This document shows positions 996 through 9,630 of a stretch of DNA of 64,000 nucleotides, piece after piece. Positions within the stretch are counted from its first letter, which is position 1, and each line of letters opens with the position of its first letter. Source of the DNA: Pantoea trifolii (GTDB taxonomy: Bacteria > Pseudomonadota > Gammaproteobacteria > Enterobacterales > Enterobacteriaceae); NCBI RefSeq assembly GCF_024506435.1, contig NZ_JANIET010000002.1, forward strand, positions 248,001 through 312,000, given 5' to 3'. The notes under the pieces were generated by a model that made no database searches, was not told the DNA's origin, and saw only the letters and a list, made by a program, of their open reading frames with translations. Both the position numbers and the translations under genes were made by a program.

Positions 996-1020
996 GGGCT
1001 GCTGTGAGCGATTAGCAGAC
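996..1020 (-). repeat. Copy of the 24-nt palindrome family (minus orientation)
   Basis: Read on the minus strand this is GTCTGCT, ten bases containing TCGCTCAC, then AGCAGCC. It fits the GTCNGCT-N10-AGCRGAC architecture repeated between the genes of the first 9.6 kb. It lies between the DUF6434-like pseudogene and the P-loop gene. Confidence 0.7.
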
Positions 1021-1132
1021 AGGTTTAATGATCTTCACTGTAAATTGAAGGTAGCTGGTTATGAAATTTTGCGAGTTACCGCTCTAATGAATGATAGGCT
1101 CTAGTCGGAAGCATGATAATATATTGAAAATG

Positions 1133-1675
1133 CTATGAAATATCCCAGCTTCGATAGCAGGCATTAATATCGCGAGGTAATGACAACATCAACTTTGGAA
1201 TGGTTGCCTGCTCGAAAATTTTCCTGTGGAGAAGGCGGTTTTTAGGCGCAATACGCACAATGTATTTAAGCATTTCCCATGTCACATTCTCCCTTCGGGT
1301 AGTGATACCACCGATCCTGGGCTTTGACGAATAACATCGCCGAATATAGCGTTGCAATGCAATTGCTACCGGCACATCAAGCAGTATCAACCCTGTAGCA
1401 CGTTCAAGCCGGGAAGAAATACACTTTGTGTAATTGCCCTCTATTATCCATCTTTCTCCACTAACAGCCTCTTCATGTAACCGATAAAAATCTTCTGGTA
1501 CACGGGGAACCCATTTTGTATCAGGTAAATGATGCAACTGGTCCAGATGAATTAAAGGGAATGACGTCTTAGAAGCAATTGCTTTTGCCAGTGTGGATTT
1601 ACCGCTATTTGATGGCCCCATGATGCATATGCGTGGGCCAAGATCATCTAATGATAAAGTATTCACCCATATCAC
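1133..1675 (-). CDS. P-loop nucleoside kinase-like ATPase (FlaR/adenylate-kinase-like)
   Basis: This 180-aa protein has a Walker A motif at residues 20-27 (GPSNSGKST) directly after a short beta-strand (RICIMG). It continues with LIHLDQLHHLPDTKW and ERWIIEGNY, the pattern of small adenylate-kinase-like or shikimate-kinase-like P-loop proteins often annotated as DNA topology modulation protein FlaR or AAA family ATPase. Basic residues at 110-125 (RYIRRCYSSKPR) resemble the lid region. The substrate is unknown; phosphorylation of a small molecule is the family inference. It stands alone between palindrome copies at 996 and 1794 in AT-rich DNA. Confidence 0.75.
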   Translation of the reverse strand: MIWVNTLSLDDLGPRICIMGPSNSGKSTLAKAIASKTSFPLIHLDQLHHLPDTKWVPRVPEDFYRLHEEAVSGERWIIEGNYTKCISSRLERATGLILLDVPVAIALQRYIRRCYSSKPRIGGITTRRENVTWEMLKYIVRIAPKNRLLHRKIFEQATIPKLMLSLPRDINACYRSWDIS

Positions 1676-2228
1676 CTAAAAGTTCAACTAATTCAGAAGA
1701 TAACAAAAATACATTAACATCTAATGTAACTACAATGCTTCCTGGCAAAACGGTGGTTCGCTACTGTGTAATTAATACTACGCGGAATTAGCAACGTCCG
1801 CTTGTGGCATACTGCGGACGTAATGTTTCATCATAATTCCGATTCAAAGCAATTAGGGCGGCCGAGCAGTGCGCTGCCGGCCTTCTTAATGACGCCCTAG
1901 CGTCATGGAGGCGCCAGATGACGCGATATATAACTCCGATGGTAAACAGCGCCGTACGCCCGGCGTAGCCGGTTGATGACCCATAAAGCCTGCCAGTCCA
2001 TCCCCCTCCCTTGTATCTAACATTATGTGGTGATTAGCTATCATCACACGAAGCGGAGTGAGCCGGGCCCCTCCCTGAGGACAGTCTGAATTACTGATCC
2101 TGCCTGACAGCTTGCGGCCCTGCGTTTCACCTCACACGCCAGCACATTTTGTTGAACGGTTACCGGGAGCATGACTCCGAATGTACAAGGCGAACAGGCG
2201 TGACGGTCAATGTGAGAGGAGAAGGAAA
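1676..2228. other. Gene-free structured stretch upstream of an IS110 remnant
   Basis: No credible gene was seen. The stretch holds one palindrome copy (1794-1821). It then turns GC-rich from about 1858, with successive short hairpins (GGCCGAGCAG/CTGCCGGCC near 1860, GACGC/GCGTC near 1889-1904). It ends in a GAGGAGAAGG ribosome-site-like sequence just before the IS110-like reading frame. In IS110-family elements the non-coding left end carries the bridge RNA gene, so part of this stretch may be a decayed IS110 left end. Confidence 0.4.
1794..1821. repeat. Copy of the 24-nt palindrome family
   Basis: Perfect 8-bp arms ACGTCCGC and GCGGACGT surround a 12-nt centre. The inner 24 nt (1796-1819) match the 7-10-7 architecture GTCCGCT-N10-TGCGGAC of the local repeat family. 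There is no T-tract, so it is not an obvious terminator. Confidence 0.75.
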
Positions 2229-2444
2229 ATGTTTCCTGTAGGTATACGACCTTTGCATCCTCTATGATGGCATAAAGGGTCGTATACGGACCAAAAAGAA
2301 AAAAATGACAGTAGTGCTGCAGCTAATATCATCCGCTGGCTTCGAATGCAGCACTGTGGCTTGGAGGACGTTCACCTTATTATGGAAGCAACCGGTGTTT
2401 ATCACGAACGGTTAGCTCTTTCGCTGCATGAAGCTGGCGCATAA
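2229..2444 (+). pseudogene. IS110-family transposase, degenerate N-terminal fragment
   Basis: The frame opens MFPVGI after a GAGGAG-type site. After a small deletion a second frame reads YDLCILYDGIKGRIRTKKK, and after an A-run the first frame resumes with NDSSAAANIIRWLRMQHCG and MEATGVYHERLALSLHEAGA before a stop at 2442. The MEATGVYHE..AL.LH.AG segment is the conserved N-terminal RuvC-like part of IS110/IS1111 transposases. At least one frameshift, an internal deletion and loss of the rest of the gene make it a relic. The lipoprotein gene starts only 43 bp downstream, so the junction is probably a recombination scar. Confidence 0.65.
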
Positions 2445-2487
2445 TTTAACAGTATCGCTCAACGGTATAAACCTAAAGGGTCGCGTT

Positions 2488-2865
2488 ATGCTGAGAACAA
2501 ACAATAAAAAGATATTAACCCTTATATTCCCCTTACTCTTCGCTCAATTACTGAGCGGGTGCTCACTGACTCGAGTTTCTGAAAAATCGCATGCCAGAGA
2601 AGTTGAGAGCCTAAATGTTATCGGAATGAGCTTGGTTGCGGCGAAAGAAAAGTTAAGTAAAAAAGGATTTGATTGCAGCGATTATCCTGAGACCAATAGG
2701 GTGCAAACCCAATCTGGCGCACGCACTTTAATACAGCTTGATTGTAGCAAACGAAGCTTAGAACTGATTTGTCCGCAGATACGCTATGCGGTACTCAATG
2801 CCGACCCCCAAAGCTTCAAAGTGGTATTAGTGGGAAAACGCATAACTCAACAAGCATGTTTTTGA
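2488..2865 (+). CDS. Small putative lipoprotein, function unknown (125 aa)
   Basis: The ATG at 2488 is preceded by AAAGGG at a workable distance and starts a clean lipoprotein signal: positively charged MLRTNNKK, a hydrophobic core ILTLIFPLLFAQ, and the lipobox LSGC. Starting further upstream would put 20 unlikely residues in front of this signal. The mature part has about four further cysteines and a basic C-terminus and matches no family I recognise. It follows directly on the IS110 relic. Envelope localisation is inferred from the lipobox only. Confidence 0.7.
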   Translation: MLRTNNKKILTLIFPLLFAQLLSGCSLTRVSEKSHAREVESLNVIGMSLVAAKEKLSKKGFDCSDYPETNRVQTQSGARTLIQLDCSKRSLELICPQIRYAVLNADPQSFKVVLVGKRITQQACF

Positions 2866-3036
2866 TGATTAATGTTCCTACGTTAAGCCTGTTTCTTAAA
2901 GAGACATGACAGGCAACTTTGAGCGCAATGCGGACATTGCCAGAAGCATTTTATGAGAATTATCAGGGAGCAGGTCGATCTTGGCATGTTATGTTAAGCA
3001 ACATATTAGTGAAAATCTAAACAGGATGTCATTCCA

Positions 3037-3243
3037 GTGAATGTAAACAGTTGCCAGACCTGCGGCCAACCGATGAGCAAAACACCAGAAACTATGAATT
3101 TTGACTGTGGCGGCGATTGTTTTTATTGCATGGCTCGCCATGGTGATCCAGACGCAATTGAGGCTATTGAGAGACTTACTGGCAAAAAAGTTAATGTCTG
3201 GGGAAGTTTATATAGTTCAAGTGAGACTAAGGGACGGTCATGA
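3037..3243 (+). CDS. Cys-rich mini-protein, zinc-ribbon-like (68 aa)
   Basis: The gene starts at GTG 3037 with AGGA about 10 nt upstream. The protein carries CQTCGQPM near the N-terminus and CGGDCFYC at residues 24-31. Two CxxC-type knuckles in so small a protein suggest zinc binding. The family is not one I can name. The stop overlaps the ATG of a 25-codon frame (3240-3317) by four bases (ATGA), which suggests the gene was once the first of a coupled pair. Confidence 0.6.
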   Translation: MNVNSCQTCGQPMSKTPETMNFDCGGDCFYCMARHGDPDAIEAIERLTGKKVNVWGSLYSSSETKGRS

Positions 3244-3317
3244 GCGAAAAGCGGAAGCCAATTCGATACTACGATCAAAGTTATCCTGCTGGACGTTTAA
3301 CGATTTTGTCCAGCTAA
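3240..3317 (+). CDS. Very short frame overlapping the Cys-rich gene; probably a truncated partner
   Basis: The ATGA overlap with the preceding stop gives a 25-residue frame starting MSEKRKPIRYYDQSYP and ending LTILSS. Stop-start coupling is a typical arrangement for partner genes, but the product is too short to be a known family. It ends close to the convergent DUF6678-type gene, so it may be a fragment left after a deletion. Low confidence that it is expressed as a functional protein. Confidence 0.3.
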   Translation: MSEKRKPIRYYDQSYPAGRLTILSS

Positions 3318-3628
3318 AGATAATTCACATTACTGAATGAATCTGCGTACCCAAAAATTCTATAACCGGTTGCAGTCTCCATTCCAGGTAGATGAATAGT
3401 CCGAAGAATAGCGCCAACTGAAGCGTGCTGATCAGCTGAATTTGTTATCACATCAAGATAGTAGATGTCTAAATAGCCGCCCTCGCTGAAATGATAAAAC
3501 CACTCGCCATCAACTGCAGTTTCATAGCCATTGATATAAGTGATTTTCCATATAGGAGGCGATTTCATAGTGACCATTGCCAGCCTGATCTCATCCCATT
3601 TTGTGTTATTCATGCAGCTATAGCGCAT
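3314..3628 (-). CDS. DUF6678-family protein (104 aa)
   Basis: The protein contains KWDEIRLAM, a central DGEWFYHFSEGGYLDIYYLDV and a C-terminal ILRTIHLPG with YRIFGY. This layout is that of small DUF6678 proteins often found among immunity-like single genes of enterobacteria. The start at 3628 has AGGAGG nine bases upstream, which favours it over the internal ATG at 3613. Function unknown. It converges with the tiny frame at 3240-3317, and the next feature on its upstream side is the palindrome that received the IS30-family element. Confidence 0.65.
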   Translation of the reverse strand: MRYSCMNNTKWDEIRLAMVTMKSPPIWKITYINGYETAVDGEWFYHFSEGGYLDIYYLDVITNSADQHASVGAILRTIHLPGMETATGYRIFGYADSFSNVNYL

Positions 3629-3699
3629 TCAATTAAACCTCCTAAGAGCAGCTTCGTACAAGTTAGCACACCTTGCTTTTAACAACGTCCGCTATTGGC

Positions 3700-4921
3700 T
3701 GTGAGTTCAACTGATGGACGCAACACATTGGTTAAAACGCTCTGCGGGTGATTCATAGTCTAGCGTTTTTCTCGGTCTTTCGTTGAGCTGTCTGGCAACG
3801 CTGTTTAGTCTTTCTTGGCTGTGAACCGATAGGTCAGTTCCTTTTGGAAAATACTGCCTAAGCAATCTGTTTGTATTTTCATTGGAGCCGCGTTGCCAGG
3901 GGGAGTGGGGATCGCAGAAGTAAACCTGGATATCTGTGGCTACAGTAAACCGGGTGTGGTTAGTCATTTCAGCACCCTGGTCCCATGTTAATGTTTTATA
4001 AAGCTCAGCAGGTAATTCCCGGGCTTGTTTGATGAGTGCAGATATAACCGTTATGGTCTTGTTGTCCCTGATCCTGGCCAGCATAACAAAACGGGAATGA
4101 CGTTCTACGAGGGTGACGATATAGGAGTTTTTAGAGCCCTGGATCAGGTCACCTTCCCAGTGACCTGGTATGGCTCTGTCGGCGGCTTCAGGTGGCCTTT
4201 CGCTGATAAAGATCGTATTCGGGATTGACCCTAATCCTTTCCCTTTAAGCGATGATGTTCTGGATCTACGCACGACTCTTCCGCTTCTGAGGCATTGCTG
4301 CAGTTCTTTTTTTAATGCCCCCCGGGTTTGTATAAAAAGCGTTTTATATATCGTTTCGTGTGACACATGCATTTCCTGATTATCCGGATAACAGCGTTTC
4401 AGCCAACCGGTGATTTGTTCCGGCGACCAGTCCTGATACATCTTCTCTGCGATGATTTTACACAGTGTGGGTCTTTCAATTAGCTTGCAAGGTTTTAGTC
4501 TCAGAGCATTTTCCCACGCAGCAGTATCCGCTTTTGATGCACGGTATTGTTTTGCACCACCGTGCCTCTTGATCTCCCGGCTAATCGTTGAGGGGGCTCT
4601 CGAGAGTTTGTTTGCGATCGCCCTGATGCTGATTTTTGCTACCAGCGCTCTGGATATTTCCTCTCTTTCATAAAGTGAAAGCGCTAACGGATGACGCTTT
4701 CGGACAGGGGGGCGGTATCCACCAGTCTGGTGGATAGTGGGCATAATAGAAGAATGATATCTGTCGAACATTCTGGCGATATCATGCAAGGAATCCCCTT
4801 GCTTATATCTGTCCCAGATAATCGCTTTCTGTTCCGGCGTGTAGTTAATACGCGTTCTTCGTTTCATGGCAACGTCCCCCTTCGATTAAGGATAGCGTTG
4901 CATCGACCCATTGAACTCACA
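3700..4921 (-). mobile_element. Complete IS30-family insertion sequence (1,222 bp)
   Basis: The inverted ends read TGTGAGTTCAACTGATGGAC (plus strand at 3700) and TGTGAGTTCAATGGGTCGAT (minus strand at 4921). A 2-bp target duplication GC flanks it at 3698-3699 and 4922-4923, as expected for IS30. One intact transposase gene fills the element on the minus strand. A diverged end of the same family lies at 9529-9571. Confidence 0.9.
3707..4867 (-). CDS. IS30-family transposase (386 aa)
   Basis: The protein is full length for IS30-family transposases. It has N-terminal DNA-binding helices (INYTPEQKAIIWDRYKQGDS and ISIRAIANKLSRAPSTISREI) and a DDE integrase core. The catalytic acids are visible in GHWEGDLI, in LTWDQGAEM and in SPWQRGSNENTNRLLRQYFPKGTD. 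The C-terminal region ends ERFNQCVASIS. IS30 transposases are known to prefer palindromic targets and to act on joined ends. Here the element sits inside an inverted repeat. No frameshift or stop was seen, so it is probably functional. Confidence 0.93.
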   Translation of the reverse strand: MKRRTRINYTPEQKAIIWDRYKQGDSLHDIARMFDRYHSSIMPTIHQTGGYRPPVRKRHPLALSLYEREEISRALVAKISIRAIANKLSRAPSTISREIKRHGGAKQYRASKADTAAWENALRLKPCKLIERPTLCKIIAEKMYQDWSPEQITGWLKRCYPDNQEMHVSHETIYKTLFIQTRGALKKELQQCLRSGRVVRRSRTSSLKGKGLGSIPNTIFISERPPEAADRAIPGHWEGDLIQGSKNSYIVTLVERHSRFVMLARIRDNKTITVISALIKQARELPAELYKTLTWDQGAEMTNHTRFTVATDIQVYFCDPHSPWQRGSNENTNRLLRQYFPKGTDLSVHSQERLNSVARQLNERPRKTLDYESPAERFNQCVASIS

Positions 4922-4947
4922 GCTCATAGCGGAACTCACTATGCAGA

Positions 4948-4977
4948 CATGTCCGCTCGGTGCTAAAGACGGACATG
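4948..4977. repeat. Copy of the 24-nt palindrome family
   Basis: Perfect 8-bp arms CATGTCCG and CGGACATG lie 14 bases apart. The inner part fits GTCCGCT-N10-GACGGAC. It follows the IS30 element by 26 bp, so two palindrome copies were originally close together here. Confidence 0.7.
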
Positions 4978-5059
4978 ACATGCAGAAGTCTGAGCAAATC
5001 CGAACAGAATGAACGTGAAATTCGATCAGGGTGATAGATAGCTTTACTCGAAGATATAG

Positions 5060-5371
5060 CTAGAGCTGTGAAGTAGTTTCTACCTCATGCTGGAAAACGT
5101 AAGGGTCGGAAAGTAGTTCAAACTTCGCGTCATCATGGTATTTGACCGCAATATGATAATTTTCTCCCGCGAAGGCCTTTACCGCCTCAAGATCCTGCCA
5201 GTAGGTGGCAAGGAAATAATGCTCCCAACCGTCCTGTGTTTCCCTTTTCACGAATGCGCCTCTGTTTCCCTCTACACTTCTTGAATGCCTCACACCGGTT
5301 TTCTCAAGATGCTTTGCAAAACCCTCAGCGTGTTTAAGCGGAACACAGCCATGCCACGTTCTGACGATCAT
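5060..5371 (-). CDS. Antibiotic biosynthesis monooxygenase (ABM) domain protein (103 aa)
   Basis: The short ferredoxin-like ABM fold is suggested by the opening MIVRTWHGCVPLKHAEGFAKHLEKTGV, the central strand HYFLATYWQDLEAVKAFAGENYHIAV and the ending HDDAKFELLSDPYVFQHEV. Members act as small cofactor-free monooxygenases or heme/quinol-binding proteins, and the substrate cannot be inferred. The gene is monocistronic in the accessory strip. Confidence 0.8.
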   Translation of the reverse strand: MIVRTWHGCVPLKHAEGFAKHLEKTGVRHSRSVEGNRGAFVKRETQDGWEHYFLATYWQDLEAVKAFAGENYHIAVKYHDDAKFELLSDPYVFQHEVETTSQL

Positions 5372-5517
5372 TTCTCTTACCTCACTTTTGTTTTATGAAA
5401 ATAAAACATAGCAAATCTCTAGTGAGGCAGTAAGCATCCTGAGAATCTTCAGCGGTTCACTGAAGCACTTTTATGTTAGAAGAGAGCATCCGGTAGGATC
5501 ACTTGAGGATAAGCAGA

Positions 5518-5874
5518 ATGCTTCTGGAAAAGCTCAGGTTGCTGGAATGCAGCCTTCACGATGACAGGCGAAACGATCGGGAGTGGCTTGAGCGGCTTCT
5601 CCACCCTGAACTCCTGGAAATCACAAGGTCAGGCGTGATGGTTGATCGTGCAGAGACGATCACGTCGCTATTAAACGAGAAAACTGCATCACCTATTATC
5701 AGCAGTAATTTCCGACTCACCGAAATGGGGGTAGGCTGCGCCATGCTTCACTACCGGACGTCTTATGATGACGGCAGTCGTCCTGCATTGCGTTCTTCCT
5801 GCTGGCTGTATTCGGATAAAGGACACTGGACTCTGGTTTTTCACCAGGGAACGCCAGCTGAAGACACTGCTTAG
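5518..5874 (+). CDS. NTF2-like / DUF4440-type protein (118 aa)
   Basis: The ATG at 5518 is preceded by GAGG about ten bases upstream and is preferred over a TTG five codons earlier that overlaps this site. The protein has the layout of small SnoaL/NTF2-like proteins: an N-terminal helix pair with LLHPELLEITRSGVMVDRAETI, then strands including MLHYRTSYDDG and a C-terminal strand HWTLVFHQGTPAED. Such proteins bind or turn over small ligands and the specific role is unknown. It ends just before the terminator shared with the convergent DUF1471 gene. Confidence 0.75.
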   Translation: MLLEKLRLLECSLHDDRRNDREWLERLLHPELLEITRSGVMVDRAETITSLLNEKTASPIISSNFRLTEMGVGCAMLHYRTSYDDGSRPALRSSCWLYSDKGHWTLVFHQGTPAEDTA

Positions 5875-5924
5875 GTTCGCTGCTGAGATGTTCTGTTCAA
5901 TGTGCCTGTATAAGGGTTCAGATA

Positions 5925-5953
5925 CAAAAAAGGCCGCCCGTGGGCGACCTTTC
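5925..5953. terminator. Rho-independent terminator (bidirectional)
   Basis: The stem AGGCCGCCC/GGGCGACCT around a short loop is flanked by an A-run on the plus strand and a T-run on the minus strand. It lies between the convergent NTF2-like and DUF1471 genes and can serve both, most clearly the minus-strand gene. Confidence 0.75.
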
Positions 5954-5979
5954 CTGGCACTTCCTTTTGCGACCATCCG

Positions 5980-6195
5980 TTATTTGTATAGCTCAGCGGT
6001 CATGTGAACGACGTTGCCGTTGCTGGCCTCAATGATTTTGTACTGCGCGCCCTGCTGCTGGGCCTGCGCGGCGATTTTGGCCTCGGCACCGTCCATAGTC
6101 AGGGACGTTGCGGTAACGCTCTGCGCGAAGCTGGCTGCTGACATCAGTGAAAGAGCTGCAACGGCGGCGATAGACATAGCTTTGATAGTTTTCAT
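5980..6195 (-). CDS. DUF1471 (YdgH/BhsA/McbA-like) periplasmic protein (71 aa)
   Basis: A signal peptide (MKTIKAMSIAAVAALSLMSAASFAQ) precedes a single small domain with SVTATSLTMDGAEAKIAAQAQQQGAQYKII and a C-terminal strand HMTAELY. This is the BhsA/McbA/YdgH fold of about 50 mature residues. Relatives are stress- or biofilm-induced periplasmic proteins. A purine-rich AAGGATAAAGAC precedes the ATG. A terminator lies just downstream. Confidence 0.88.
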   Translation of the reverse strand: MKTIKAMSIAAVAALSLMSAASFAQSVTATSLTMDGAEAKIAAQAQQQGAQYKIIEASNGNVVHMTAELYK

Positions 6196-6399
6196 GGTCT
6201 TTATCCTTGGTTTTTATGGTTGAAAGCGTGTTTGCTTTCGATGAGATAATGATAACCAAGGTTACTATTAGCACATTAACAATAAGTGCTGATATTGTGA
6301 TCGTGCTAACTATCAAGGCAATAGGTGTACTCGATGAATGGTTCGGCGCTGGGTTATTATGTTTAATGCGGAGAACATCCCTGTAGCTATCATTTTGAC

Positions 6400-6462
6400 G
6401 TCTGCTATTCGCTCACAGTGGACCTTCAGGTCTGTCAGATAACCGCTTCGTGCCAGAAGCGG
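6400..6462. repeat. Two copies of the palindrome family
   Basis: The first copy (6400-6423) is GTCTGCT, a centre with TTCGCTCAC, then AGTGGAC. The second (6443-6462) has perfect 7-bp arms CCGCTTC and GAAGCGG around GTGCCA. Both lie between the DUF1471 gene and the 3' part of the cupin gene. Confidence 0.65.
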
Positions 6463-6728
6463 ACTGGCAAATACTCGCGAGCTGTCAGTAGGGTGAAGGA
6501 AGGTCAGAACGATCCCCTCGTGTTGTCGGATGCGAAATTACAATAAACTCTACGGGAGACCCAGTGTCATTTCTGGCTTGATGCTTTGAACCCGGTGGGA
6601 TTTCCAGGCCCTGCAGAGCCTTAATATTATGAATTTCTCCTTCCAACTCCATGGAATGTAGTGGTTTACTGAATTTGGCCACCTGAACAGAGGTGATATG
6701 CTCACCTCAGAACAACACAGGTGTCCGA

Positions 6729-7897
<1,169 letters not shown>

Positions 7898-8084
7898 CCA
7901 CTACAGAAAGAATGCCAGTAATAACAAAGAAAAACTGCCTTGAAACGGAGTGAAAGTGTCGTTTTTCAAAAGTGCCTGGCGGCATTTGTTCATGAATAAC
8001 CAGCATGTCCGGGCGGTTTAACAGATACCAACCGTCGCAATCGTCGCCCCAGACATAATGCTCTGCATTATCCTTTGAAATCAT

Positions 8085-8427
8085 TATCCTTCTCCTCTAT
8101 ACCTGTGTGCGTCTCTCTATACCTTAAGAAGGTTATACCGAGAGATTCTTTAGATTCACAATAGGTTATGCTTTTTGTTAATTCCTTTAAGTCCCGAACT
8201 GCATCATTCAACCTATCTGGCCGTCATGAATGAAATGTTATAGCAGTGTCCAGGCAGGACCGTAACGTCCGTTCTTCGCTCATTGCAGACCGTGCAGCGC
8301 ACAGGTCAGCTTCGCGTCAATAGCGGACATTTTGTAAGCTCTCCTGGATAAATTGAGAATATGATCATGTGTAAACTTGAGCTGAATTTTAACGCTCAAG
8401 AAAAAAACTTCAGCGGAGAACATCTAA
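8085..8427. other. Gene-free stretch with palindrome copies
   Basis: The stretch separates the divergent cupin and VOC genes. It contains two 24-nt palindrome copies (8267-8290 and 8305-8328) about 14 bp apart. No open frame with a ribosome site was seen. Confidence 0.6.
8267..8328. repeat. Pair of 24-nt palindrome copies
   Basis: Copy one is GTCCGTT, centre CTTCGCTCAT, then TGCAGAC. Copy two is GTCAGCT, centre TCGCGTCAAT, then AGCGGAC. Both are exactly 24 nt with imperfect arms. Confidence 0.7.
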
Positions 8428-8814
8428 TTGTTTACTCATATGCGTATTGCCAAACCCGTCTCCAATCTTGAACGATCTTTTCTGATGTATAGTCAGGGAC
8501 TGGATTTACACAAATTAGCTGAATTCAATGATCATGACGGTTTCAATGGACTGATGTTAGGACGGAAGGGCTTAGACTGGCACATTGAATTCACCTTTTG
8601 CCTTAGTCATCCCATTCAACCTTTGCAAACTCAGGAGGATTTACTCGTTCTTTATTATTCAGATGAAAATGCGTGGATAGATGCCTGTGCAAGGATGATA
8701 GAAGCCGGATTCAACATGACGAACTCATTTAACCCTTACTGGGATATCAACGGAAGGACATTTGTTGACCCAGATGGATACAGAGTGGTTATCCAAAATA
8801 AGGCATGGGTATAA
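8428..8814 (+). CDS. VOC (glyoxalase/dioxygenase superfamily) protein (128 aa)
   Basis: The sequence shows one VOC module: MRIAKPVSNLERSFLMYSQGLDLHKLAEF at the start, DWHIEFTFC with the first metal-ligand-type histidine, and GRTFVDPDGYRVVIQNKAW at the end, the typical D-P-D-G-Y-R-V/L strand. It belongs to the YycE-like branch of small enzymes or resistance proteins. The TTG at 8428 lies ten bases after GGAG, while the ATG four codons later is 22 bases away, so TTG is the better start. Substrate unknown. Flanked on both sides by palindrome copies. Confidence 0.8.
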   Translation: MFTHMRIAKPVSNLERSFLMYSQGLDLHKLAEFNDHDGFNGLMLGRKGLDWHIEFTFCLSHPIQPLQTQEDLLVLYYSDENAWIDACARMIEAGFNMTNSFNPYWDINGRTFVDPDGYRVVIQNKAWV

Positions 8815-8863
8815 TTTCAATTATTATTGCCAGTCCACTGGCCGTCTAGTTGCAAACCTGACG

Positions 8864-8887
8864 GTCTGCTCCTCGCTCACAGCGGAC
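8864..8887. repeat. 24-nt palindrome copy
   Basis: GTCTGCT, centre CCTCGCTCAC, then AGCGGAC. A weaker half copy (TTCGCT...AGCGGAC) follows at about 8904-8926. It separates the VOC and GNAT genes. Confidence 0.7.
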
Positions 8888-8947
8888 GGTGTTCAAATTA
8901 GTTGTTCGCTTAGGGCCATGAGCGGACATCGATGAAAATTCTGTGAA

Positions 8948-9388
8948 TTAAACGTCACGAGATTTCTCTAATTTGATGTCAGTGCCATTGAGATCTGTTT
9001 CATTACCCCAACCGAGCTGCATATAAAATTTCGCCGCGCGACTATTCTTATCGGTTTCCAACCAGGCAATATCATGATGTTGGAATAACTCCTGCTCGGC
9101 GAGCATAACAAGCCTGCGACCTATTCCTTTGCCTTCATATTCAGGCAGAACAAAGGCCGCAAACAGACATCCTTCATCCGGAAATATCATGGAGAAGCCA
9201 ATGATTTTATTATTTTCAGTCGCAACCCATGCGCAAAGACTTTTTTCAACCATATCGCCTACCACGCTTTCGGTAATACCCATCTGCCGCATCTCTTCAC
9301 GGCTCAGGTGATTCTCGATTACCGATGTTCTGACGTCGAACGTTCCCTCGATATCAGAAAGTCGAGCTGTTCTTATGTGGAAACTCAT
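8948..9388 (-). CDS. GNAT family N-acetyltransferase (146 aa)
   Basis: The N-terminus MSFHIRTARLSDIEGTFDVRTSV is the usual first strand and helix of GNAT proteins. The acetyl-CoA binding motif A is seen as GCLFAAFVLPEYEGKGIGRRLV, with the Q/R-x-x-G-x-G/A core at EGKGIG. Motif B follows as WLETDKNSRAAKFYMQLGW. The protein transfers an acetyl group from acetyl-CoA to an unknown amine or amino acid. It is a single gene between palindrome copies at 8864 and 9474. Confidence 0.88.
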   Translation of the reverse strand: MSFHIRTARLSDIEGTFDVRTSVIENHLSREEMRQMGITESVVGDMVEKSLCAWVATENNKIIGFSMIFPDEGCLFAAFVLPEYEGKGIGRRLVMLAEQELFQHHDIAWLETDKNSRAAKFYMQLGWGNETDLNGTDIKLEKSRDV

Positions 9389-9473
9389 TAGTCTTACTCC
9401 ATGTATGACGAAATAATTTTGATAATAATGTCAAAAAAAACAACGGAATATACACTTTAAGGCGGCAAATTAT

Positions 9474-9497
9474 GTCAGCTTTTCGCTCACAGCAGAC
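9474..9497. repeat. 24-nt palindrome copy
   Basis: GTCAGCT, centre TTTCGCTCAC, then AGCAGAC. It is the last copy found on the right side of the accessory strip and lies just before an IS30-end relic. Confidence 0.7.
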
Positions 9498-9528
9498 GTC
9501 GTTTTCCTCGGGCTTGGCCGCTTTGTGA

Positions 9529-9571
9529 TGTGAATTCAACCGATGGATGCAACACACTTATTGAACCGCTC
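9529..9571 (-). mobile_element. IS30-family end relic
   Basis: The sequence TGTGAATTCAACCGATGGAT matches the IS30-family terminal repeat at 3700 with few changes. Read on the minus strand it encodes the transposase tail ERFNKCVASIG followed by a stop, against ERFNQCVASIS in the intact copy. Everything upstream of the tail is gone. This is an older, diverged copy rather than a duplicate of the complete element. Confidence 0.75.
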
Positions 9572-9630
9572 AGTTTTTAATGTAGAGAACGGCCTCCTAA
9601 AGTTAACCCTGCATATGATAAAAATAACAT

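Follow-up and report, generated by a model that had tools for sequence, protein, structure and literature searches.

In the 64,000-nucleotide stretch of the Pantoea trifolii genome analyzed here (the window; positions 248,001 to 312,000 of contig NZ_JANIET010000002.1), small genes at the left end are separated by copies of a 24-bp palindrome, a single copy of which we call P. Comparison with copies in other genomes suggests a gene-cassette system that works by site-specific recombination with crossovers at these palindromes and has a tyrosine recombinase of about 200 amino acids (aa) as its enzyme, a reading to which we give a probability of roughly 0.78. From their sequences, the palindromes resemble recombination sites at the borders of single-gene cassettes that can be exchanged and are probably moved by this small, unstudied integrase. 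The system occurs in prophage, plasmid and chromosome sequences of proteobacteria, and no published account of it or of its sites was found in the titles and abstract beginnings of the papers listed by searches of an open-licence library. Of 137 papers there that contain the letters of both arms, the 20 listed deal with other matters.

Palindrome anatomy and exchange of units

A preliminary description of the window had listed palindromes of the GTCNGCT type between the genes of this strip. Since the corresponding loose pattern, allowing three mismatches, matched the whole window 32 times against a mean of 27.8 in shuffled sequence, and thus not above chance, we built a 30-nt weight matrix trained on 126 distinct copies of P from other genomes, taken as matches to the exact pattern. 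At a score of at least 19 the matrix found 11 matches in the window, and 2 in total in 100 first-order Markov windows of 64 kb. At a score of at least 10 it found 13, all between 0.99 and 9.53 kb; the Markov control then gave 165 matches, or about 1.65 per window, so that the two lowest scorers, at 3687 (split by an insertion sequence, IS) and 3233, are less certain. Every copy on the preliminary list proved real and lay 0–3 nt from its given position, and the remaining 54 kb, said to be free of palindromes, indeed held none at a score of at least 10. The list had overlooked the partner palindromes at 6441, 8904, 2912 and 3233, and with them the organization of the intergenic copies into doublets (38–42 nt from start to start). 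The cluster is dense at 1–9.5 kb, as had been described, but runs on just to the left of the window (C2:247130-247195), and the copy given as 3688/4933 exists, but its two parts are the halves of a single palindrome into which an IS30-family element has inserted.

The window belongs to a 776-kb contig in a 5.06-Mb genome; at the DNA level, its first 12 kb are best matched by plasmids of Pantoea and Erwinia. The whole genome contains 14 sites with at most one mismatch, 8 of which lie in a single 10.4-kb stretch beginning just left of the window and the other 6 in five places; the even genome-wide spread that would have marked an ordinary repeat was therefore not seen. With up to two mismatches, the site pattern matched the genome 30 times versus 17 for a reversed control pattern. 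Elsewhere, the exact pattern was found in at least 120 stretches of the genome collection and at least 120 in viral contigs, the titled genome records belonging to Enterobacterales (Pantoea, Erwinia, Enterobacter, Klebsiella, Serratia, Proteus), many Hyphomicrobiales, Pseudomonas, Idiomarina and Nitrosospira. Of 398 genomes sampled evenly across the phylum, 11 carried the exact pattern, 10 of them from the window's family, and none carried the control pattern; within the family, 92 of 198 sampled genomes had a site with at most one mismatch, versus 1 of 198 for the control.

P consists of inverted arms, GTCYGCT and AGCRGAC, around an asymmetric core of 6–7 nt that comes in two types, C (TCGCTCA) and G (TGGCAC, or GTGCCA on the other strand). 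A doublet is formed by P(+), a spacer of 14–18 nt and P(-). This arrangement was found in 112 of 128 palindrome pairs lying 34–48 nt apart (overlapping loci being counted repeatedly), and the start-to-start distance peaked at 42 nt (50 cases), with 54 cases at 38–41 nt. Counted once per context, 86 doublets were C/G, 2 were C/C and 22 had an untyped end. The units between doublets have the layout P(-) gene P(+), so that inversely oriented short sites with a short core flank the gene, and 196 of the 197 units with both ends typed had one C and one G end, the remaining unit having two G ends (the count excludes 36 units and 22 doublets in which an end was untyped). Neighboring doublets had the same orientation in 19 of 19 cases. 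The units had a median length of 1.4 kb, 137 of 232 contained a single open reading frame (ORF) of at least 70 aa, and their genes ran from G to C in 83 cases versus C to G in 54 (p=0.016). Covarying arms, which the preliminary description had proposed as a sign of a hairpin, were not found at positions 4 and 21 of the same palindrome, either in C-type copies (237 usable of 260; Fisher p=1.0) or in G-type copies (311 usable of 353; p=0.29), which argues against a conserved hairpin and is as expected if the two arms derive from different partners. In six loci of Hyphomicrobiales (L043, L054, L058, L060, L072 and L106), a G-type site was paired with another second core (TTTTGGGGGTAA or similar); judged from these letters, this core seems to vary from one bacterial group to another.

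The same unit was found in many places. U1, a unit of E. coli carrying a gene with the annotation hypothetical or GIY-YIG nuclease, occurred in seven E. coli or prophage contexts with at least 99.2% identity over about 1190 nt (an IS-truncated copy, L308, with 92.8% identity and no recognizable ends, is omitted). Part of U1 was matched in 300 of 5426 genomes of the ecoli_genomes collection, and 38 of the 40 matches listed cover most of the unit. Its left end was constant from GTGCCA inward, with the preceding nine letters in six forms, and its right end was constant through CGCTC, with varying letters beyond. All seven left and all seven right junctions fell inside the 6–7-nt core, and none between variable positions of the arms. 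Because the letters outside vary while the core and the inside are constant, the outer arm goes with the place, the inner arm goes with the unit, and the crossover lies in the core.

Many different units were also found in one place. At a lambdoid prophage site, site A, we compared 54 sequences with a common left flank (L304, L158 and L427 are omitted, and the overlapping L326/L429 and near-identical L302/L396 retained). The left target arm read GTCCGCTTT in 50 sequences and GTCCACTTT in 3 and was interrupted in one, and the left core was GTGCCA in 52 of 54, while the unit-side arm took 17 readable forms, one from the interrupted copy. On the right, in the 40 complete sequences, the core was TCGCTCA in 38 and the target arm AAGCGGAC in 35, with 1–2 changes in the other 5, and the unit-side arm took 20 forms. 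Among the 47 sequences with at least 700 nt, a count that drops L429, L302 and the interrupted L354, there were 23 unrelated first units. Near-constant target arms together with varying cassette-side arms are, read at the level of sequence, the mark of site-specific recombination. A second site showed the same pattern in 15 sequences, with a palindrome after each, and 9 distinct starts among 17 loci. No empty site was seen at either place. A pair of arrays differed by a whole segment: L346 reads site, unit Y, and L326/L429 (overlapping pieces of one contig) reads site, unit X, integrase module, unit Y, the two sharing 98.3% identity over 3992 nt of unit Y and right flank. In this single pair, the extra segment of about 2.55 kb (unit X and the integrase module) had GTGCCAGGAGCGGACGT at both ends.

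A gene of the window itself behaves similarly. Homologues of its GNAT acetyltransferase gene in five other sampled genomes, with 66–92% protein identity, were all bordered by P, and seven more distant homologues (at most 56% identity) had no P within 1.5 kb on either side. Between the window and the nearest relative, the unit matched over 598 nt at 90.6% DNA identity, running from palindrome to palindrome, and beyond the palindromes no similarity was detected at E≤1e-3. A homologue of the ATPase gene at 1133–1675, in L128, also has the same repeat at its border. In all, 41 of 2836 interior ends of DNA homology lay within 40 nt of a doublet centre, versus 6.4 expected, and formed two peaks at the edges of the two palindromes; this enrichment is descriptive, because the loci were chosen for having P. 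The suggestions that cassettes had been assembled around the repeat, and that gene content varies with copies staying at the boundaries, are thus supported by the differing neighbors of P-bordered homologues of the window's GNAT gene in other genomes, and the suggestion of a recombination substrate by the position of unit/context junctions inside the core.

The candidate recombinase

In E. coli AR437 and STEC435, the 18-nt spacer between P(+) and P(-) is replaced by a gene for a 200-aa tyrosine recombinase, with 684 nt between the palindromes in both; the STEC435 copy is interrupted by an internal stop. In enterobacteria, full-length integrases with at least 80% identity were found in 24 distinct contexts, and P was present at fixed offsets upstream in 22, downstream in 23, on both sides in 21 and on neither in 0, compared with P at both ends in 264 of 230,000 random placements of an integrase-length gene (the set omits the full-length L428 and L489, which have short flanks, and 35 partial matches of at least 80% identity). 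The letters to the left of the module's core differed from place to place and those to the right were nearly constant, so that the borders of the module are the same as those of the cassettes. Among loci that had not been fetched by means of the integrase, integrase-fetched loci being left out on purpose, 5 of 13 C/G linkers longer than 50 nt held the integrase, all with palindromes 684 nt apart, and it was present in 1 of 203 cassette-type units. These positions make the recombinase of about 200 aa the likely enzyme of the system.

The protein matched PF00589 with E=2e-17 and 63.9 bits versus a curated cut-off of 27.1, and its sequence matches to XerD in PDB were weak (E=0.004). In an alignment excluding copies with stops, R51, K79, R151, H174 and Y183 were present in 46 of 46 sequences and H148 in 45 of 46. 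The family is very numerous, with at least 7988 homologous proteins at E≤1e-20, and its members are named just integrase or recombinase in the sources consulted. It was found in 71 of the 398 sampled phylum genomes, in 434 plasmid records ranging from Sinorhizobium and Pantoea to Vibrio, and, counting fragments, in 55 viral loci. Downstream of the integrase, CCANNAGCRG occurred in 17 of 50 flanks versus 0.21 expected, and in 10 of 33 versus 0.16 for integrases of less than 70% identity; several of the repeats flanking distant integrases were near-perfect and built on GTCCGCT..AGCGGAC. In non-enterobacterial loci (L404, L407, L410, L412, L413, L416, L418, L439, L440 and L443), a related repeat, GTCCGCTNNTGGCCGG.../...CCGGCCANNAGCGGAC, stood inverted on both sides of the integrase; as far as its letters tell, this repeat is a group-specific version of the site. 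The neighbor of mcr-10 called 'XerC' was considered as an instance of the recombinase and set aside, since its 996-bp gene (about 331 aa) is too long to encode this protein. No integrase was detected in the window's own genome at E≤1e-20, which makes the array of the window an orphan, integrase-less one. That there is no integrase, as had been remarked, is accordingly true of the window and its genome at this threshold, but the likely enzyme is present in relatives.

Several observations weigh against this enzyme or against the sites as read here. The tie between enzyme and site is positional, and integrase and sites were not significantly associated in family genomes of at least 3 Mb (19 of 21 versus 73 of 103, p=0.098; the genomes were counted by eye, with the integrase in 21 of 198 family genomes and 124 genomes of at least 3 Mb tested); all 74 sampled family genomes under 3 Mb were without sites, again by eye. 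The enterobacterial site pattern is rare beyond the family (11 of 398 phylum genomes, 10 of them in-family) compared with the integrase (71 of 398). With this matrix, most distant integrases had no recognizable site at both ends, and a significant flanking inverted repeat was found in 7 of 33 contexts under 70% identity (7 of 49 overall). Broken integrase copies are common, as the 35 partial matches attest, and the partial integrases L437 and L444 lack P on one or both sides. Furthermore, 8 of the 13 long linkers were without an integrase, and the AlphaFold model of the recombinase was too poor to use (mean pLDDT 47). The training of the matrix on pattern matches biases the frequencies of cores and arms, and the variety at site A could partly be explained by ordinary phage recombination across the flanks.

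Competing explanations and a proposed mechanism

This last point leads to the explanation that competes best, which we nevertheless consider unlikely: that the palindromes are short conserved boundaries at which general or phage recombination swaps genes, in the manner of the boundary linkers proposed for the mosaicism of lambdoid phages. The many copies of P in viral contigs are consistent with it, and the flanks of site A are alike between prophages, so that whole segments could be exchanged. Homologous recombination would not, however, be expected to place every left and right U1 junction in the core, where the target arms at site A likewise end, nor to yield the rule of one C and one G end (196 of 197) or a recombinase in the linker position.

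Transposition is more improbable still. A unit would here be a transposon-like element with half-palindrome ends (TGWGCSANNAGCRGAC) that inserts in the centre of a palindromic target, and the units do end in inverted repeats, with the outer half-palindromes belonging to the target, just as IS30-family copies do insert at palindrome centres. The model would require two different end types, however, and no consistent target duplication was seen by eye in the seven U1 contexts; nor did the 25 Pfam families most frequent in 139 representative unit proteins include a transposase, a result to be read with the caveats that ORFs were not annotated singly and that IS3-type ORFs are present inside an interrupted unit of the window.

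The two remaining readings deserve hardly any credence. A repetitive extragenic palindromic (REP) sequence or bacterial interspersed mosaic element (BIME), an RNA hairpin, a terminator or a protein-binding site with no role in recombination would fit palindromic, intergenic repeats whose pairs resemble BIMEs in outline, but these readings were rejected on account of the clustering of the copies (8 of 14 sites in 10.4 kb) and the absence of arm covariation, are contradicted by the junction data, with gene homology breaking at the sites, and sit poorly with doublets that occur in the window between divergent, convergent and co-directional gene pairs alike. Integron cassettes with unusual attC sites, as in clusters of attC sites lacking integron-integrases (CALINs), would share the array logic, the cargo and the orphan arrays; the copies had been called not attC-like, however, and this is confirmed by the lack of the R-box pair (RYYYAAC left, GTTRRRY right) in all 112 doublets, while breaks fall in the palindrome cores and not at an R box and the units have two different end sites.

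Seen as parts of a cassette system, the units are usually single genes whose two end sites are inversely oriented and have unlike cores, one G and one C, and adjacent cassettes are joined, C core to G core, by a linker that is either the 14–18-nt spacer or the module of the tyrosine recombinase. The recombinase would bind the arms and exchange strands in the core, pairing C with C and G with G. Since its ends are inverted and unlike, a cassette could not be lost through its own two ends; it could be swapped for another, or a circle of cassette and linker could be inserted or removed at like cores. Such a mode of exchange would account both for the lack of empty sites among those seen and for the single orientation of the arrays. 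Arrays lacking the enzyme, such as that of the window, would be relics or substrates in trans.

We lean, with some reserve, towards regarding the system as a further class besides integrons and Xer-driven modules, namely a natural cassette exchange with two non-cross-reacting cores, run by the family of 200-aa recombinases, that keeps its site filled and carries genes for phage defence, resistance and metabolism back and forth between the prophages, plasmids and chromosomes of Pseudomonadota. If so, it would supply a boundary rule and a candidate enzyme for many accessory genes that so far lack an explanation of how they move, among them prophage defence genes and 'integrase-only' islands. Considering that 92 of 198 family genomes have a site with at most one mismatch, cassettes could then be found by sequence, and new defence and resistance genes could be found as their cargo. 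A survey of E. coli defence islands states that how some such islands move is not clear (PMC10121019).

Window features, cargo and relation to known systems

The features of the window are collected in the table below. The unit at 6485–8084, between the doublets at 6441 and 8267, contains a gene split by an IS3-type element (ends at 6657–6683 and 7879–7905); from reading alone, we take the gene to be a cupin and the inserted element to be IS3. In the last doublet, the G palindrome seems to be broken by a second IS30-family end at 9529–9575. Next to a transposase-like ORF at 274–558 lies a 40-nt direct repeat with 98% identity (573–652).

Table. Palindromes, units and insertions in the window (positions in the window; P, single palindrome).
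Feature	Position	Strand	Detection
P, C core; partner degenerate	997..1020	-	matrix
Cassette gene, P-loop/AAA_18-like ATPase (under Pfam cut-off for AAA_18)	1133..1675	-	
P, G core; partner not recognizable	1796..1819	+	matrix
Weaker P, C core, score 19.6	2912..2935	-	matrix
Weak P, C core, score 13.1	3233..3256	-	matrix
Left half (G-type) of IS30-split palindrome	3687..3699	+	
IS30-family element at palindrome centre, GC on both sides; transposase gene 3707-4867	3700..4921	-	
Right half (C-type) of IS30-split palindrome	4922..4934	+	
P, G-like core, second half of doublet	4951..4974	-	matrix
Cassette unit: ABM-like (5060-5371 -), DUF4440 (5503-5874 +) and YdgH/BhsA-like (5980-6195 -) genes	5060..6195		
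P, C core	6400..6423	+	matrix
17-nt doublet spacer	6424..6440	+	
P, G core, inverted	6441..6464	-	matrix
P, C core	8267..8290	+	matrix
P, G-like core, inverted; 14-nt spacer 8291-8304	8305..8328	-	matrix
Cassette gene, glyoxalase/YycE-like	8428..8814	+	
P, C core	8864..8887	+	matrix
P, G core, inverted; 16-nt spacer 8888-8903	8904..8927	-	matrix
Cassette gene, GNAT acetyltransferase	8948..9388	-	
P, C core	9474..9497	+	matrix
Probable left half of G palindrome, spacer 9498-9515; cut by IS30-family relic from 9529	9516..9528	-	by eye, under matrix threshold

The commonest Pfam families among the 139 representative unit proteins, which stand for 260 ORF clusters, were GNAT (5) and glyoxalase (3), and the single-member families among the 25 commonest listed included ArsB, an APH(6)-type kinase, AbiH, AbiTii and TerC. 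Strong PADLOC matches among those listed were PD-T7-1, PD-T7-3, the UG17 reverse transcriptase, the CBASS 4TM protein and cyclase, DarG and candidate single-gene systems. In a prophage of E. coli NADC1036 (L297), two doublets enclose an AbiH gene, and the second has a SIR2-family gene beside it, an example of how the sites may help to locate defence genes. According to another report, the Salmonella prophage defence gene GiPD474 has an integrase gene downstream in almost all clades (PMC12724215); GiPD474 may be a unit beside an integrase module.

Insertion at the palindrome recalls IS30, which, as one study states, inserts into nearly palindromic hot spots (PMC9333248). All four IS30-family copies examined, that of the window (3687–4934) and L510, L511 and L512, from Pantoea and Klebsiella, lay precisely in the middle of a palindrome and were flanked by GC left and right; the three from outside the window had been picked from matches running past the IS ends. 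The proposal that the repeat is a landing site that attracts insertions thus holds narrowly, for these elements; the IS is a visitor here, and the cassettes do not depend on it. By eye, three of the four IS30-bearing palindromes were C/G hybrids, such as recombination between IS copies in two sites would leave. Fixed sites with a changing content of anti-phage genes are also known from the hotspots of prophages and satellites (P2, P4) and from E. coli defence islands (PMC9122126, PMC10121019); the present sites are not described in the available parts of these sources, and the boundaries here are defined to the core.

Like the shufflon, in which the recombinase Rci acts on inverted sfx sites, the present system has inverted sites, and the sfx core, GTGCCAA, is close to the G core, GTGCCA. 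Rci, which is a larger protein, inverts segments of one gene, whereas the units described here are unrelated genes that change place. The resemblance to integrons and CALINs extends to a tyrosine recombinase, arrays of mostly single-gene cassettes with adjacent sites in one orientation, mixed accessory cargo and integrase-less arrays. Integrons differ in that attC is a hairpin with R boxes, whereas here there are two 24-bp lox/dif-like sites with unlike cores, the recombinase has about 200 aa and the integrase is itself a module of the array. In the pdif modules of Acinetobacter plasmids, genes likewise lie between two short sites in inverse orientation, each with two arms around a short centre; those sites have 28 bp, compared with 24 bp here, and are acted on by the host XerC/XerD. 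The arms and core are different here, a dedicated recombinase is proposed and two core types are paired by unit end; the arms GTCYGCT/AGCRGAC look unlike those of dif. Laboratory cassette exchange uses lox variants, and two unlike end cores would be a natural form of it. The system is integron-like in its logic but nearer in its build to pdif modules and laboratory cassette exchange.

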